Assembly (NCBI GenBank): GCA_012838615.1
Contig: DUOV01000200.1
Span: 1-51,844 of the forward strand
Direction of reading: 5' to 3'
DNA: 51,844 nucleotides
DNA from: Clostridia bacterium
Lineage (GTDB): Bacteria > Bacillota > DUOV01 > Zhaonellaceae
Below are positions 40,248 through 43,897 of the stretch, piece after piece. The translations under genes were made by a program, and so were the position numbers. A model generated the notes under the pieces. The model was not told the origin of the DNA. It did not search any database and was given only the letters and a program-made list of their open reading frames with translations. Within the stretch, counting starts at the first letter, position 1, and every line of letters starts with the position of its first letter.

Positions 40248-41075
40248 ATGCATAGTATAAGGAGAAAACTTGATGAAAGTTTAAGTTACATAAAAGCTGA
40301 AGCTGAAAATAAACAACCTCAGGTTGGGTTAGTCCTAGGTTCTGGATTGGGGCCGCTAGGTAATGAAATAAGTAAGGCTAGCATTATAGATTATAAAAAT
40401 ATTCCCTATTTTCCAGTTTCAACAGTTGAAGGTCATGCCGGAAAGTTAATAATTGGAAATTTGGAAGGAAAGGAAGTAATTGCCTGCCAGGGAAGATTCC
40501 ACTATTATGAAGGTTATGACTTAACTGAAGTAACTTATCCAATTAGAATTATGCAAGCTTTAGGCGTTCACACATTGATTGTAACAAACGCTGCAGGTGG
40601 CATAAACAAATCCTTTAAGCCCGGAGATATTATGCTCATTGAAGATCATATAAACCTATTAGGCAGCAACCCACTCCGAGGTAAAAATGAACCTGAGCTG
40701 GGACCTAGATTTCCCGATATGACTGAAGCGTACGCAAAAGAGTTGAAAAATTTAGCTACTAAGGCAGCTAATGAATTAGGTATCACTCTAAAGAAAGGTG
40801 TCTATGCGGCCTTTTCTGGCCCTAGCTATGAAACACCTGCGGAAATTCGTTTCCTAAGATTAGTCGGGGCCGATTCAGTAGGTATGTCTACAGTTCCTGA
40901 AGTTATTGTTGCTAACCATGCCAATATTAAAGTCCTTGGTATTTCATGTATTACCAATATGGCTAGTGGCGTACTAGATAGAAAACTCAGTCATGATGAA
41001 GTTGTAGATACGGCTAATAAAGTTCAAGCCTCTTTTATAAAGTTAGTAAAAAAAATAATAGCTTTACTCCCCTAA
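40248..41075 (+). CDS. punA: Purine-nucleoside phosphorylase
   Basis: Cleaves purine nucleosides with phosphate to base and ribose 1-phosphate. The 275 residues show GSGLGPLG (phosphate loop, about 28-35), VEGHAGKLIIG, TNAAGGI (about 110-116) and the base pocket GMSTVPEVIVA. ATG 40248 follows AAGGAGG by 5 bases; an upstream in-frame TTG lies in deoB. Its terminator is split by an insertion sequence: TCCCCTAA at 41068-41075 includes the stop codon, and the matching arm is at 42646-42653, beyond the element. Confidence 0.94.
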   Translation: MHSIRRKLDESLSYIKAEAENKQPQVGLVLGSGLGPLGNEISKASIIDYKNIPYFPVSTVEGHAGKLIIGNLEGKEVIACQGRFHYYEGYDLTEVTYPIRIMQALGVHTLIVTNAAGGINKSFKPGDIMLIEDHINLLGSNPLRGKNEPELGPRFPDMTEAYAKELKNLATKAANELGITLKKGVYAAFSGPSYETPAEIRFLRLVGADSVGMSTVPEVIVANHANIKVLGISCITNMASGVLDRKLSHDEVVDTANKVQASFIKLVKKIIALLP

Positions 41076-41080
41076 CCTTT

Positions 41081-41104
41081 TGATCTGACCCCCTAAACTT
41101 GGAC
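41081..41104 (+). repeat. Left terminal inverted repeat of the IS
   Basis: Begins TGATCTGACCCCCTAAAC. It matches the complement of 42617-42640 at 17 of 24 positions, with a solid TGACCCC core. Confidence 0.8.
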
Positions 41105-41132
41105 CAAGAAAATCCAAGTTTAGGGGGTTTTT
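41089..41132 (+). terminator. Perfect 15-bp hairpin at the IS left end
   Basis: Arms 41089-41103 and 41113-41127 pair perfectly over a 9-base loop, followed by TTTTT to 41132. It can stop transcription entering from outside. The right arm also contains the transposase SD (AGGGGG), so read-through mRNA would have its SD hidden. Confidence 0.85.
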
Positions 41133-41134
41133 AT

Positions 41135-41704
41135 ATGGCAAAGTATAGTTTGAAATTTAAATTGAAAGTCGTAATAGCCTATATAAATGGCGAAGGTGGT
41201 TACGATACACTTGCTAAAAAATATGGTGTTCCATCAAGTAAAGACATTAGGCAATGGGTCAAAATGTATAAACAATATGGAGAGGACGGCTTAAAGAGAG
41301 CTCGTAAAAACAGAAGCTACAGTATAGAATTTAAATTAGATGCAACAGCACTATATGAATCTAGCGAGATGTCCTATGCTGAAGTAGCTATCCATTTCGG
41401 ATTGAACAATCCTTCTTTAATTCCCAATTGGCGACGTCAGTTTCGCGAAGAAGGCATCGGTGGACTCTCGAAAAGAAAAGGGAGGCCACCAATGGTCAAT
41501 AAGGATGAACTTTCTATGCCTAAGACGCAAGATACTAAACTATCACTAGATGAAGCAAACAAGCGCATTCAAGAATTAGAATACGAACTTCACTTGGCGA
41601 CAATCAAAAATGAGTACTTGGAACAATTAAGGAGTTTGGGGCATCAGAAAGCAATGAAGACAAAGCAAGAATCATCCACAAACTCCGAGAAAAATACAGA
41701 TTGA
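41135..41704 (+). CDS. IS3-family transposase OrfA
   Basis: A 189-residue DNA-binding protein with two helix-turn-helix parts (KFKLKVVIAYINGEGGYDTLAKKYGV at about 7-32, and a similar unit at about 60-85, DATALYESSEMSYAEVAIHF) and a C-terminal leucine-zipper-like helix (LDEANKRIQELEYELHLATIKNEYLEQL). It binds the IS ends and can be fused to OrfB by frameshifting. ATG 41135 follows AGGGGG by 7 bases; an upstream TTG at 41099 would read through the left-end hairpin. Confidence 0.9.
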   Translation: MAKYSLKFKLKVVIAYINGEGGYDTLAKKYGVPSSKDIRQWVKMYKQYGEDGLKRARKNRSYSIEFKLDATALYESSEMSYAEVAIHFGLNNPSLIPNWRRQFREEGIGGLSKRKGRPPMVNKDELSMPKTQDTKLSLDEANKRIQELEYELHLATIKNEYLEQLRSLGHQKAMKTKQESSTNSEKNTD

Positions 41705-42546
41705 CTGAGATTCTTGCAGCAGTTGATTTCCCTAAATCAACCTATATGTATTGGCAGGCACGTTTTGACATTGAGGATCCGGACCAAGAACTAAAGGATG
41801 AGATTTTAGCTATTCGCGAACAACATAAAAATTATGGTTACCGACGAATAACTGCGGAACTTCGTCGTAGAGATTGGAAAGTCAACAAAAAGAAAGTCCA
41901 ACGTTTATGCCAGAAACTCGGTATCCAAGTGACAGCTTTTGGGCGAAAATATCGCAAATATAGTAGTTACAAAGGCGTAGTTGGTAACATCGTGCCTAAT
42001 CGTTTGAATCGAAGATTTGCTACCAGGATGATTCACCAAAAGATAACGACCGACACCACAGAGTTCAGATACTATACAGAAGATGAGAATAGAAAACTAC
42101 AAATCCAAAAACTGTATCTCGATCCTTTTATGGATCTAAGTAACTTAGAGATCATTAGTTATCGCATTTCACCGCAGCCGAACAAAGGAACTATGTTAGA
42201 AGCTTTAAAAGAAGCCATTGAAAATACCAATGATTGTATTTATCGACGCACCTTCCATTCAGATCGTGGTTGGGCTTACCAAATGAAAGAATATCAGCAA
42301 TTACTGAAAGACAATAGGATCTTTCAAAGTATGTCTCGTAAAGGGAATTGCCTAGATAATGCACCGATGGAGAACTATTTCGGATTACTTAAGCAAGAAA
42401 TATATTATGGTCGCATCTTTAAAAGCTATGGGGAATTAAAGAAAGCTACAGAAGACTACATAAAATATTACAATGAAGTTCGAATTAAAGAAAATCTAGG
42501 CTGGTTAAGTCCAGTAGAATACCGGCAAGAAGTTCTTGCGGCATAG
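41614..42546 (+). CDS. IS3-family transposase OrfB (DDE integrase), reading frame
   Basis: Catalytic part of the transposase. The frame lies -1 relative to orfA and is open from 41614; the possible own start is TTG at 41701, overlapping the orfA stop. The in-frame sequence upstream (ARIIHKLREKYRLTEILAA) looks coding, which favours an OrfAB fusion by -1 slippage. The region HTH_21 (YGYRRITAELRRR) is followed by the rve core with the DDE triad: D in TTDTTEF, D in FHSDRGWAYQ and E in APMENYFGLLKQE. The frame is intact, so the element may be active. Confidence 0.9.
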   Translation, partial: VLGTIKEFGASESNEDKARIIHKLREKYRLTEILAAVDFPKSTYMYWQARFDIEDPDQELKDEILAIREQHKNYGYRRITAELRRRDWKVNKKKVQRLCQKLGIQVTAFGRKYRKYSSYKGVVGNIVPNRLNRRFATRMIHQKITTDTTEFRYYTEDENRKLQIQKLYLDPFMDLSNLEIISYRISPQPNKGTMLEALKEAIENTNDCIYRRTFHSDRGWAYQMKEYQQLLKDNRIFQSMSRKGNCLDNAPMENYFGLLKQEIYYGRIFKSYGELKKATEDYIKYYNEVRIKENLGWLSPVEYRQEVLAA

Positions 42547-42616
42547 AAAAATGATTGTATCATGCAGAAACAAGAAAAAAAGAAGAGCAAACAAAACAAA
42601 TTTGTTCACTCTTCTG

Positions 42617-42640
42617 GTTCAATTTTATGGGGTCACTCTA
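42617..42640 (-). repeat. Right terminal inverted repeat of the IS
   Basis: On the reverse strand reads TAGAGTGACCCCATAAAATT, the partner of 41081-41104. The expected end CA/TG is not kept at this end (it reads TA). Confidence 0.75.
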
Positions 42641-42645
42641 TTTTA

Positions 42646-42659
42646 TTAGGGGATTTTTT
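42646..42659 (+). terminator. Displaced right half of the punA terminator
   Basis: TTAGGGGA (42646-42653) is the exact complement of TCCCCTAA at 41068-41075, followed by TTTTTTG. Removing the IS and one target copy restores a stem-loop whose loop was CCTTTTA. Confidence 0.8.
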
Positions 42660-42690
42660 GTTAATTAGATAAGTTTAACTGTTTTTTTCT

Positions 42691-42720
42691 GAATGAGGAA
42701 ACCTAAAAAGTATAATACTA
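42691..42720 (+). promoter_or_regulatory. Candidate SigG/SigF-type promoter of dacF
   Basis: GAATG at 42691-42695 (gnATR) and AATACTA at 42714-42720 (close to CATnnTA) are 18 bases apart. A TATAAT at 42711 could also be a SigA -10. DacF in Bacillus is forespore-controlled, so the first reading is plausible. Confidence 0.4.
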
Positions 42721-42742
42721 CTAAAAAAGGAGGTAATGTTTA

Positions 42743-43897
42743 ATGAAAAAGCTATCTTCTTTTATACTTTTTTTAAGCATTTTACTTAGTATCTTTCCAA
42801 TTGGAAATAATTTGGTTTATGCAGAAGAATTTAAACTTAATGCTAAGGGCGCAATCTTAATTGACGCTGAGTCAGGGCAAGTTCTATTTGAACAAAATGC
42901 CCATGAACCATGGTATCCTGCAAGTGTAACTAAAATAATGACTATGGCTTTAGCGTTGGAAGCTGTTGATAAGGGTAAAGTAAGCCTTAATGACATTATA
43001 AGACCAAGCGAAAATGCATGTAGCTATGGAGGTTCTCAAGTTTGGTTAGATCCAAGGGATGAATTTACTCTTGAGGAAATGCTTATAGCTATTGCTGTCG
43101 GTTCTGCAAACGATGCAAGCGTAGCAGTAGCCGAGTTCATAAGTGGTACAGAAGAAAACTTTGTTAAAATGATGAATAACAAAGCAAAAGAAATTGGAGC
43201 CACAAACACGAACTTTGTTAATTCACACGGCCTTCACGATGATAACCATTATACAACGCCAGCTGACATGGCTAAAATTGCTCGTTATGCTTTGTCTTAT
43301 CCAAAACTTCTTGAACTTACTTCAATTAAACATTATAAATTTAGAGACGAACCAAAAGAATTGATTCTTCATAATACAAATAAGTTACTCTGGCGCTATC
43401 CAGGAACTGACGGACTTAAGACTGGGACTACCTCTAAAGCCTTGAGAAATCTTGTTTCTACCGTACAAAAAGACAATCTCCGTTTGATTGGAGTAGTAAT
43501 GGGTGTGGAGCAAACAGGAGGACACTTTTCTGAATCTATAAAGTTATATAATTGGGGTTTTGCTCTGTTTAAATATGAACAATTGTTTTCCGAGGGACAA
43601 ATAGTAACAACAACTAAGGTTAGTAAAGGAAAAACTCAAGAAGTACCTTTAGTAGCTGCCAAGAAAATTGGTACCATTGTTAAAAAAGACAATGGCGAAA
43701 TTAAAATTGAACCTATAATAAAAGTACCTTCATATATACCTGCGCCAATTAAAAAAGGAGATAAAGTTGGCTTAGTTGAAATTCTGGCTAATGGTAAACT
43801 TGTAAATACAATAGATCTGTTAGCCGGTGATTCTGTTGAAAAAGCATCCTTTTTAAATATTTTTGATCGAACCTTTAGAAATATATTCTGTTACTAA
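42743..43897 (+). CDS. dacF: D-alanyl-D-alanine carboxypeptidase DacF
   Basis: A sporulation-linked PBP5-type enzyme that trims cortex and cell-wall peptides. The 384 residues have a signal peptide (about 1-27, cut near VYA), the catalytic SVTK (S-x-x-K, about 62-65), SAN (about 118-120) and KTGT (about 229-232), and a C-terminal beta-rich domain. AGGAGG precedes the ATG. It sits directly before spoIIAA, the same order as in Bacillus. The stop codon overlaps a terminator stem. Confidence 0.93.
   Translation: MKKLSSFILFLSILLSIFPIGNNLVYAEEFKLNAKGAILIDAESGQVLFEQNAHEPWYPASVTKIMTMALALEAVDKGKVSLNDIIRPSENACSYGGSQVWLDPRDEFTLEEMLIAIAVGSANDASVAVAEFISGTEENFVKMMNNKAKEIGATNTNFVNSHGLHDDNHYTTPADMAKIARYALSYPKLLELTSIKHYKFRDEPKELILHNTNKLLWRYPGTDGLKTGTTSKALRNLVSTVQKDNLRLIGVVMGVEQTGGHFSESIKLYNWGFALFKYEQLFSEGQIVTTTKVSKGKTQEVPLVAAKKIGTIVKKDNGEIKIEPIIKVPSYIPAPIKKGDKVGLVEILANGKLVNTIDLLAGDSVEKASFLNIFDRTFRNIFCY

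Follow-up and report, generated by a model that had tools for sequence, protein, structure and literature searches.

Directly behind punA, which ends at 41075, five bases ahead of the element, the window (the whole analysed stretch of DNA, 51,844 nucleotides) carries an IS3-family element that is present as a single copy in its own genome according to a genome search. The element, its target duplication, its ends and its genes are arranged as follows:

41081-42640, plus strand: IS3-family element, 1560 bp, defined by its ends, the duplication and the OrfB profile match
41078-41080: left copy of the 3-bp target duplication TTT
42641-42643: right copy of the 3-bp target duplication TTT
41081-41105, plus strand: left terminal repeat (IRL), matched by eye to the right end and conserved in the alignment of relatives (alignment A1)
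42616-42640, minus strand: right terminal repeat (IRR), matched by eye
41135-41704, plus strand: orfA, encoding a helix-turn-helix protein of 189 aa, with its ATG at 41135
41701-42546, plus strand: orfB, encoding an integrase-type DDE transposase of 281 aa from a TTG, in the -1 frame of orfA

The repeats match each other and lie inside the 3-bp duplication TTT, with a left tip that reads TG, the 5'-TG start of repeats in this family, but a right tip that reads TA, where the relatives have CA or TA. OrfB matches the IS3 transposase profile NF033516 with 252.5 bits (cut-off 160), while rve, rve_2 and HTH_21 all score above their cut-offs, giving the integrase-type DDE core of the IS3 family, and the overlap of orfA with an orfB in the -1 frame is likewise the arrangement of this family. 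Upstream of the TTG, the orfB frame remains open through the orfA overlap (41600-41704), forming an open frame of 310 aa, as expected for a putative -1 frameshift fusion. A DNA search of 61 genomes (its own and those of relatives) matched three, one being its own and the other two matching in part only, and a plasmid search returned no record covering 80% of the query.

The element appears to have interrupted a terminator, the two halves of which flank it:

41068-41075, plus strand: left arm of the likely punA terminator; it overlaps the stop codon of punA
42646-42659, plus strand: right arm of the likely punA terminator, with a T6 run

Brought together, the flanks read TCCCCTAA-CC-TTT-TA-TTAGGGGA-TTTTTT, which is likely the terminator of punA, and the insertion point falls in its loop. 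A preliminary description of this DNA is silent on the split terminator, as well as on the inward-facing hairpin at the right end of the element (see below), and dealt with the hairpin at the left end, which consists of the following parts:

41087-41103, plus strand: left arm of the hairpin, inside IRL
41104-41112, plus strand: loop of 9 nt
41113-41129, plus strand: right arm of the hairpin
41122-41127, plus strand: Shine-Dalgarno sequence (SD) AGGGGG within the right arm, 7 nt ahead of the ATG
41128-41132, plus strand: T5 run after the stem, between SD and ATG, terminator-like

The arms contain an inverted repeat of 16 nt with 100% complementarity (41088-41103 and 41113-41128), and a G·U pair between 41087 and 41129 lengthens the stem to 17 pairs. 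The perfect 15-bp stem that had been described is real and represents the inner part of this helix; also borne out are the statements that the stem is partly made from the terminal repeat, the left arm lying within IRL of the element, and that the right arm holds the SD and is followed by five T. The end coordinate given for the feature at that time, 41137, is the final base of the orfA ATG. Folding of the left-end region, which had been proposed as a check, gave -32.3 kcal/mol for 41060-41160 as compared with a shuffled mean of -19.2 (z -3.8), and none of 200 shuffles folded as well. A terminator pattern scan of 40950-42800 does not have the left-end hairpin among its listings, the stated loop limit being 8 nt and the loop here 9 nt; the stable stem followed by a T run that defines an intrinsic terminator is present at this hairpin. 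In Rfam, the region 40900-42800 yielded no match at the gathering score, the four listed matches being far below it.

Relatives were obtained by a scan of genome contigs for OrfB, which gave 80 loci, and the collection comprises 87 loci, 62 of them with a usable left end and 50 of these distinct; loci lacking an orfA match or the left motif (L020, L064, L071 (N), L075, L076 and L078) are omitted from the left-end set. In all 50 distinct left ends the terminal repeat forms a hairpin with the sequence ahead of the orfA start, with z values of -3.3 or below against shuffles of the right part, and in a second small set from other genomes the hairpin recurs in all eight elements with both ends readable. 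When 48 of the 50 left ends were aligned (L014 and L065 omitted), giving 47 distinct rows, pairing was seen in 83.8% of the cells as opposed to at most 54.3% when slid by one to three columns. Two-sided changes occur at 10 of 21 pairs and amount to 55 cells, compared with a shuffled mean of 23.7 (55 is reached in 0 of 500 shuffles). Columns 6-53 covary between UA (17 rows) and CG (11 rows) and columns 21-36 between AU (26) and GC (15), while columns 14-45 hold several pair types (AU 9, UA 9, GC 5, out of the same 47 rows). Since relatedness persists in the shuffle control, more weight is given to the slid control and to the multiple pair types per place. Furthermore, G·U pairs are retained at columns 7-52 (12), 18-39 (7), 21-36 (5) and 22-35 (3), and their occurrence at several positions points to RNA. 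The pair count, that is the 83.8% and the two-sided changes, used a structure specified by us; RNAalifold kept 7 pairs in the same alignment, probably because the arms are one column out of step in some rows, and the IS150-like rows L049, L051, L052, L054 and L055 do appear one column off register, which lowers their pairing score. Judging from the alignment, the left-end hairpin is a conserved trait of the related elements. At columns 11-48 the pair is absent in 27 of the 47 rows, and many rows spell GGAGG there, so that the SD looks to have been preserved at the expense of the stem. Within columns 46-56 of alignment A1 two types are seen, one with a G-run SD without extension, to which the window's element belongs, and one with GGAGGTCRG, in which the pairing bridges a mismatch and runs on to the terminal repeat's tip.

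The consequence of this pairing for the SD was estimated by folding transcripts with different starts. With starts at 40900 or 41060, about 19.6 kcal/mol is needed to open the six SD bases, as compared with 6.1 kcal/mol at 41093, 1.9 kcal/mol at 41095 and 2.1-5.2 kcal/mol for later starts, the SD being still partly paired with downstream sequence (2-5 kcal/mol) when the outer arm is missing. Because the cost drops for starts from 41093 on, the lock would be the C run of the left arm, and a start behind the C run would open the SD. The spacer between SD and ATG is also distinctive, with T at 67% and A at 11% across 47 elements, whereas in 79 further genes of the same loci and the window that have a comparable SD, T makes up 35% and A 40%, and only 8 of these genes reach the median T fraction of the elements. 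At least five T follow within 8 nt past the stem in 43 of 48 elements. The left-end hairpin and the T-rich spacer therefore have the form of an intrinsic terminator, at which transcription would presumably end. With respect to transcription entering from punA, which according to the preliminary description would either stop or give an mRNA with a blocked SD, the masking of the SD is well supported by folding and comparison, and the stop agrees with the T-rich spacer, from which it may be presumed. The notion that the element in this way avoids activation from outside stands in its core, the shielding, but has found less backing as to an own promoter starting inside the hairpin, for which the scans gave weak candidates, one of them in the window:

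41085-41113, plus strand: weak candidate own promoter CTGACC-17-GAAAAT, 7.2 bits against a shuffled mean of 3.6 (sd 2.3)

This candidate would begin transcription in the right arm. A consensus promoter scan of 40950-42800 found no plus-strand promoter, and across the family the left-end promoter scores average 3.9 bits as against 3.6 for shuffles, with nothing convincing within the hairpin; the scoring employed an approximate SigA matrix. A circle-junction promoter, such as the Pjunc reported for the IS2 type in the excerpted source (PMC3299598), was considered as a way to start inside the left arm and was rejected, the junction scoring 3.4 bits with the approximate SigA matrix, below its shuffles (4.5). 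An own start point inside the stem is a candidate that we infer.

At the other end of the element a separate hairpin was found by the terminator pattern scan:

42581-42615, minus strand: right-end hairpin of 15 pairs, followed on this strand by a T run, an inward-facing terminator-like site

In most relatives the stretch between orfB and the right repeat contains a further hairpin, for which at least five of the eight bases ahead of the stem are A in 37 of 44 cases and at least five of the eight after it are T in 1 of 44; for the window's element the scoring of the relatives chose another stem (3 A of 8) and not the 15-pair hairpin. The right-end hairpin thus looks like a minus-strand terminator facing inward, and since both hairpins are terminator-like and face inward, the element appears to be shielded from both sides.

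The insertion sites of the relatives were analysed for 42 insertions with both flanks, 13 loci with short flanks and loci without a right end being omitted. With 1722 flank pairs obtained by swapping as the control, a hairpin spanning the site is found at p <= 0.05 in 27 of the 42 (about 2 expected) and at p <= 0.01 in 23; the mean site hairpin score is reached by 0 of 300 permutations, and at 21 sites no more than 1% of the nearby positions (within 300 bp) score equally well. The hairpin test failed at 15 of the 42 sites, and 2 of 5 sites pass it in the second small set, while an exact 3-bp duplication accompanies 31 of the 42 related insertions. The window's site on its own is modest, with p 0.03 and 3.9% of nearby positions equalling it. 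When the longest frame within 300 bp was taken as the neighbour by a mechanical rule, the left neighbour is directed towards the element in 30 of 42 cases, away from it in 5 and was not found in 7, and the right neighbour points back at the element in 23 of 42. Converging gene pairs often have a common two-way terminator. A fixed orientation of the element relative to the terminator was considered and dropped, as many sites lie between converging genes and, where both neighbours of a hairpin site were found and are parallel, five elements face with them and two against. Judged from these predicted hairpins, the preference for terminator loops holds for the clade beyond the window's element, and its precision with respect to the loop would favour a transposase that seeks hairpins over a selective loss of insertions elsewhere.

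Taken together, the left-end hairpin is probably a conserved device of a Firmicutes IS3-family clade, which would shield the transposase genes from outside transcription. This reading is built on features visible in the sequences, namely the stem and its maintenance through two-sided changes, the SD with the T run behind it, the location in terminator-like loops and the right-end hairpin, to which it adds termination, a block of translation and an own start inside the stem as predicted steps. Insertion would favour the loops of intrinsic terminators, just behind a gene, so that a polymerase coming from the upstream gene (punA here) would read the terminal repeat first, and the repeat would pair with the right arm a few bases later. 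Hairpin and T run should then end most transcripts, standing in for the terminator that was split by the insertion, and in transcripts that escape termination the SD of orfA would be kept shut in the stem. A transcript that starts within the left arm or the loop would lack the pairing C run and expose the SD, and because an internal start would free the SD, it is proposed that transposase is made from the element's own transcription only. Transcription arriving from the other side should be halted by the right-end hairpin with its minus-strand T run. The broader proposition, to which we give a slightly better than even chance, is that this clade lives in intrinsic terminators, inserting into the loop with a 3-bp duplication and carrying an inward terminator at each end, such that the transcript ends of the neighbours are kept and the transposase remains silent, with the left end serving at once as the transposase-binding terminal repeat, as the terminator of the upstream gene and as the SD lock. 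If true, this would account for the tolerance of such insertions, and for the ability of the elements to persist right behind active genes that neither suffer from them nor activate them. The hairpin would then be a natural RNA switch whose state is set solely by the position of the transcription start, and it becomes testable how the transposase recognises a terminator, be it as a DNA cruciform, by its transcription state or by its sequence.

The same hairpin could also be read at the level of DNA, the right arm being a second, inverted binding site of the transposase or part of a cruciform, with the bound transposase repressing transcription or holding the end and the RNA pairing as a by-product. 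Similarity is seen between the right arm and the inner part of IRR, and a site evolving together with the transposase would covary with the left arm too; however, G·U pairs are kept, the SD column leaves the pairing in 27 of 47 rows, and the T run is given no role, so that we consider this explanation unlikely. The loss of pairing at columns 11-48 also bears on the possibility that the hairpin is a terminator only, in which the G run at the stem base acts as SD as the ATG is close, and masking has no separate importance. Such a terminator would account for the strong stem and for the T run in 43 of 48 elements, and an element that splits a terminator benefits by supplying another, but a pure terminator would retain the pair that these 27 rows have lost, many of them with GGAGG in its place, which makes this reading quite improbable.

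That the stem is a functionless chance palindrome or a remnant of the punA terminator is scarcely credible. The element does occupy the likely punA terminator, yet the stem lies inside the element and not in the host, and it is found in 50 of 50 distinct left ends at unrelated insertion sites; a chance or remnant origin is refuted by this presence in all left ends together with the pairing kept through two-sided changes. The shielding device thus remains the preferred reading, and its parts can be compared with known systems.

In IS10 and IS50, an mRNA structure that forms only upon read-through hides the transposase start, and the element's own promoter starts within the structure. We know of no terminator role for these structures; both elements belong to other families, and the window's element has a weak promoter candidate only. 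IS150 of Escherichia coli K-12 is a member of the IS3 family with a similar terminal repeat and the same order of two genes, a likeness to the IS150 group that is judged from ends and gene order alone. However, its left end forms a weak hairpin of -8.2 kcal/mol over 57 nt, which is not comparable with those of the clade, and its left-end duplex has -7.2 kcal/mol as compared with -16.9 to -31.5 kcal/mol in the clade. A parallel in function is IS200 of Salmonella (IS200/IS605), for which the sections of the source used here describe a terminator-like stem-loop against impinging transcripts and a second stem-loop that occludes the ribosome-binding site of the transposase, terminal inverted repeats being absent (PMC3196728). 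SD masking and a terminator against outside transcription would thus be common to both, as far as that account goes, but here one hairpin would serve both tasks, with the terminal repeat as its left arm, and the element encodes a transposase of the integrase/DDE type, whereas IS200/IS605 elements have an HUH tyrosine transposase and no terminal inverted repeats.

With regard to target choice, IS1397, ISKpn1 and ISPsy8 of the IS3 family are described, in the excerpt of the source, as choosing palindromic intergenic sequences, the REP repeats (PMC1525189), whereas the clade of the window's element appears to favour terminators. IS1272 and TnSha1 (IS1182 family) target hairpins without a sequence consensus, several of which are confirmed terminators; in the part of the paper drawn on, IS1272 inserts bluntly with deletion of part of the stem and without duplication, in contrast to the loop insertion with 3-bp duplication seen here (PMC4923244). 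IS1447, of a Firmicutes IS3 group, was dismissed as a parallel, its stem-loop being part of a slippage site in the excerpted source and a different matter (PMC6211511). Titles and the beginnings of abstracts in the open-licence literature contained no IS3-family elements in terminators with such ends, which is weak evidence of novelty as the search was limited to open-licence papers. That masking and termination are merged with the terminal repeat, and this in an IS3 clade that seems to seek out terminators, looks like a new variation, and the wider pattern, in which the clade would dwell in terminators, carry an inward terminator at either end and build the lock out of its terminal repeat, is the more interesting part. 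Among the relatives, the element at L047 (about 1837-1932, Helcococcus sueciensis) has bases of its own left end in tandem immediately ahead of the complete left end, as would result from insertion of one copy into the left-end hairpin of another, and the right flank of L063 past 3504 (Anaerococcus ihuae) resembles the reverse complement of a related left-end hairpin, which suggests insertion of a copy at the base of another copy's hairpin.
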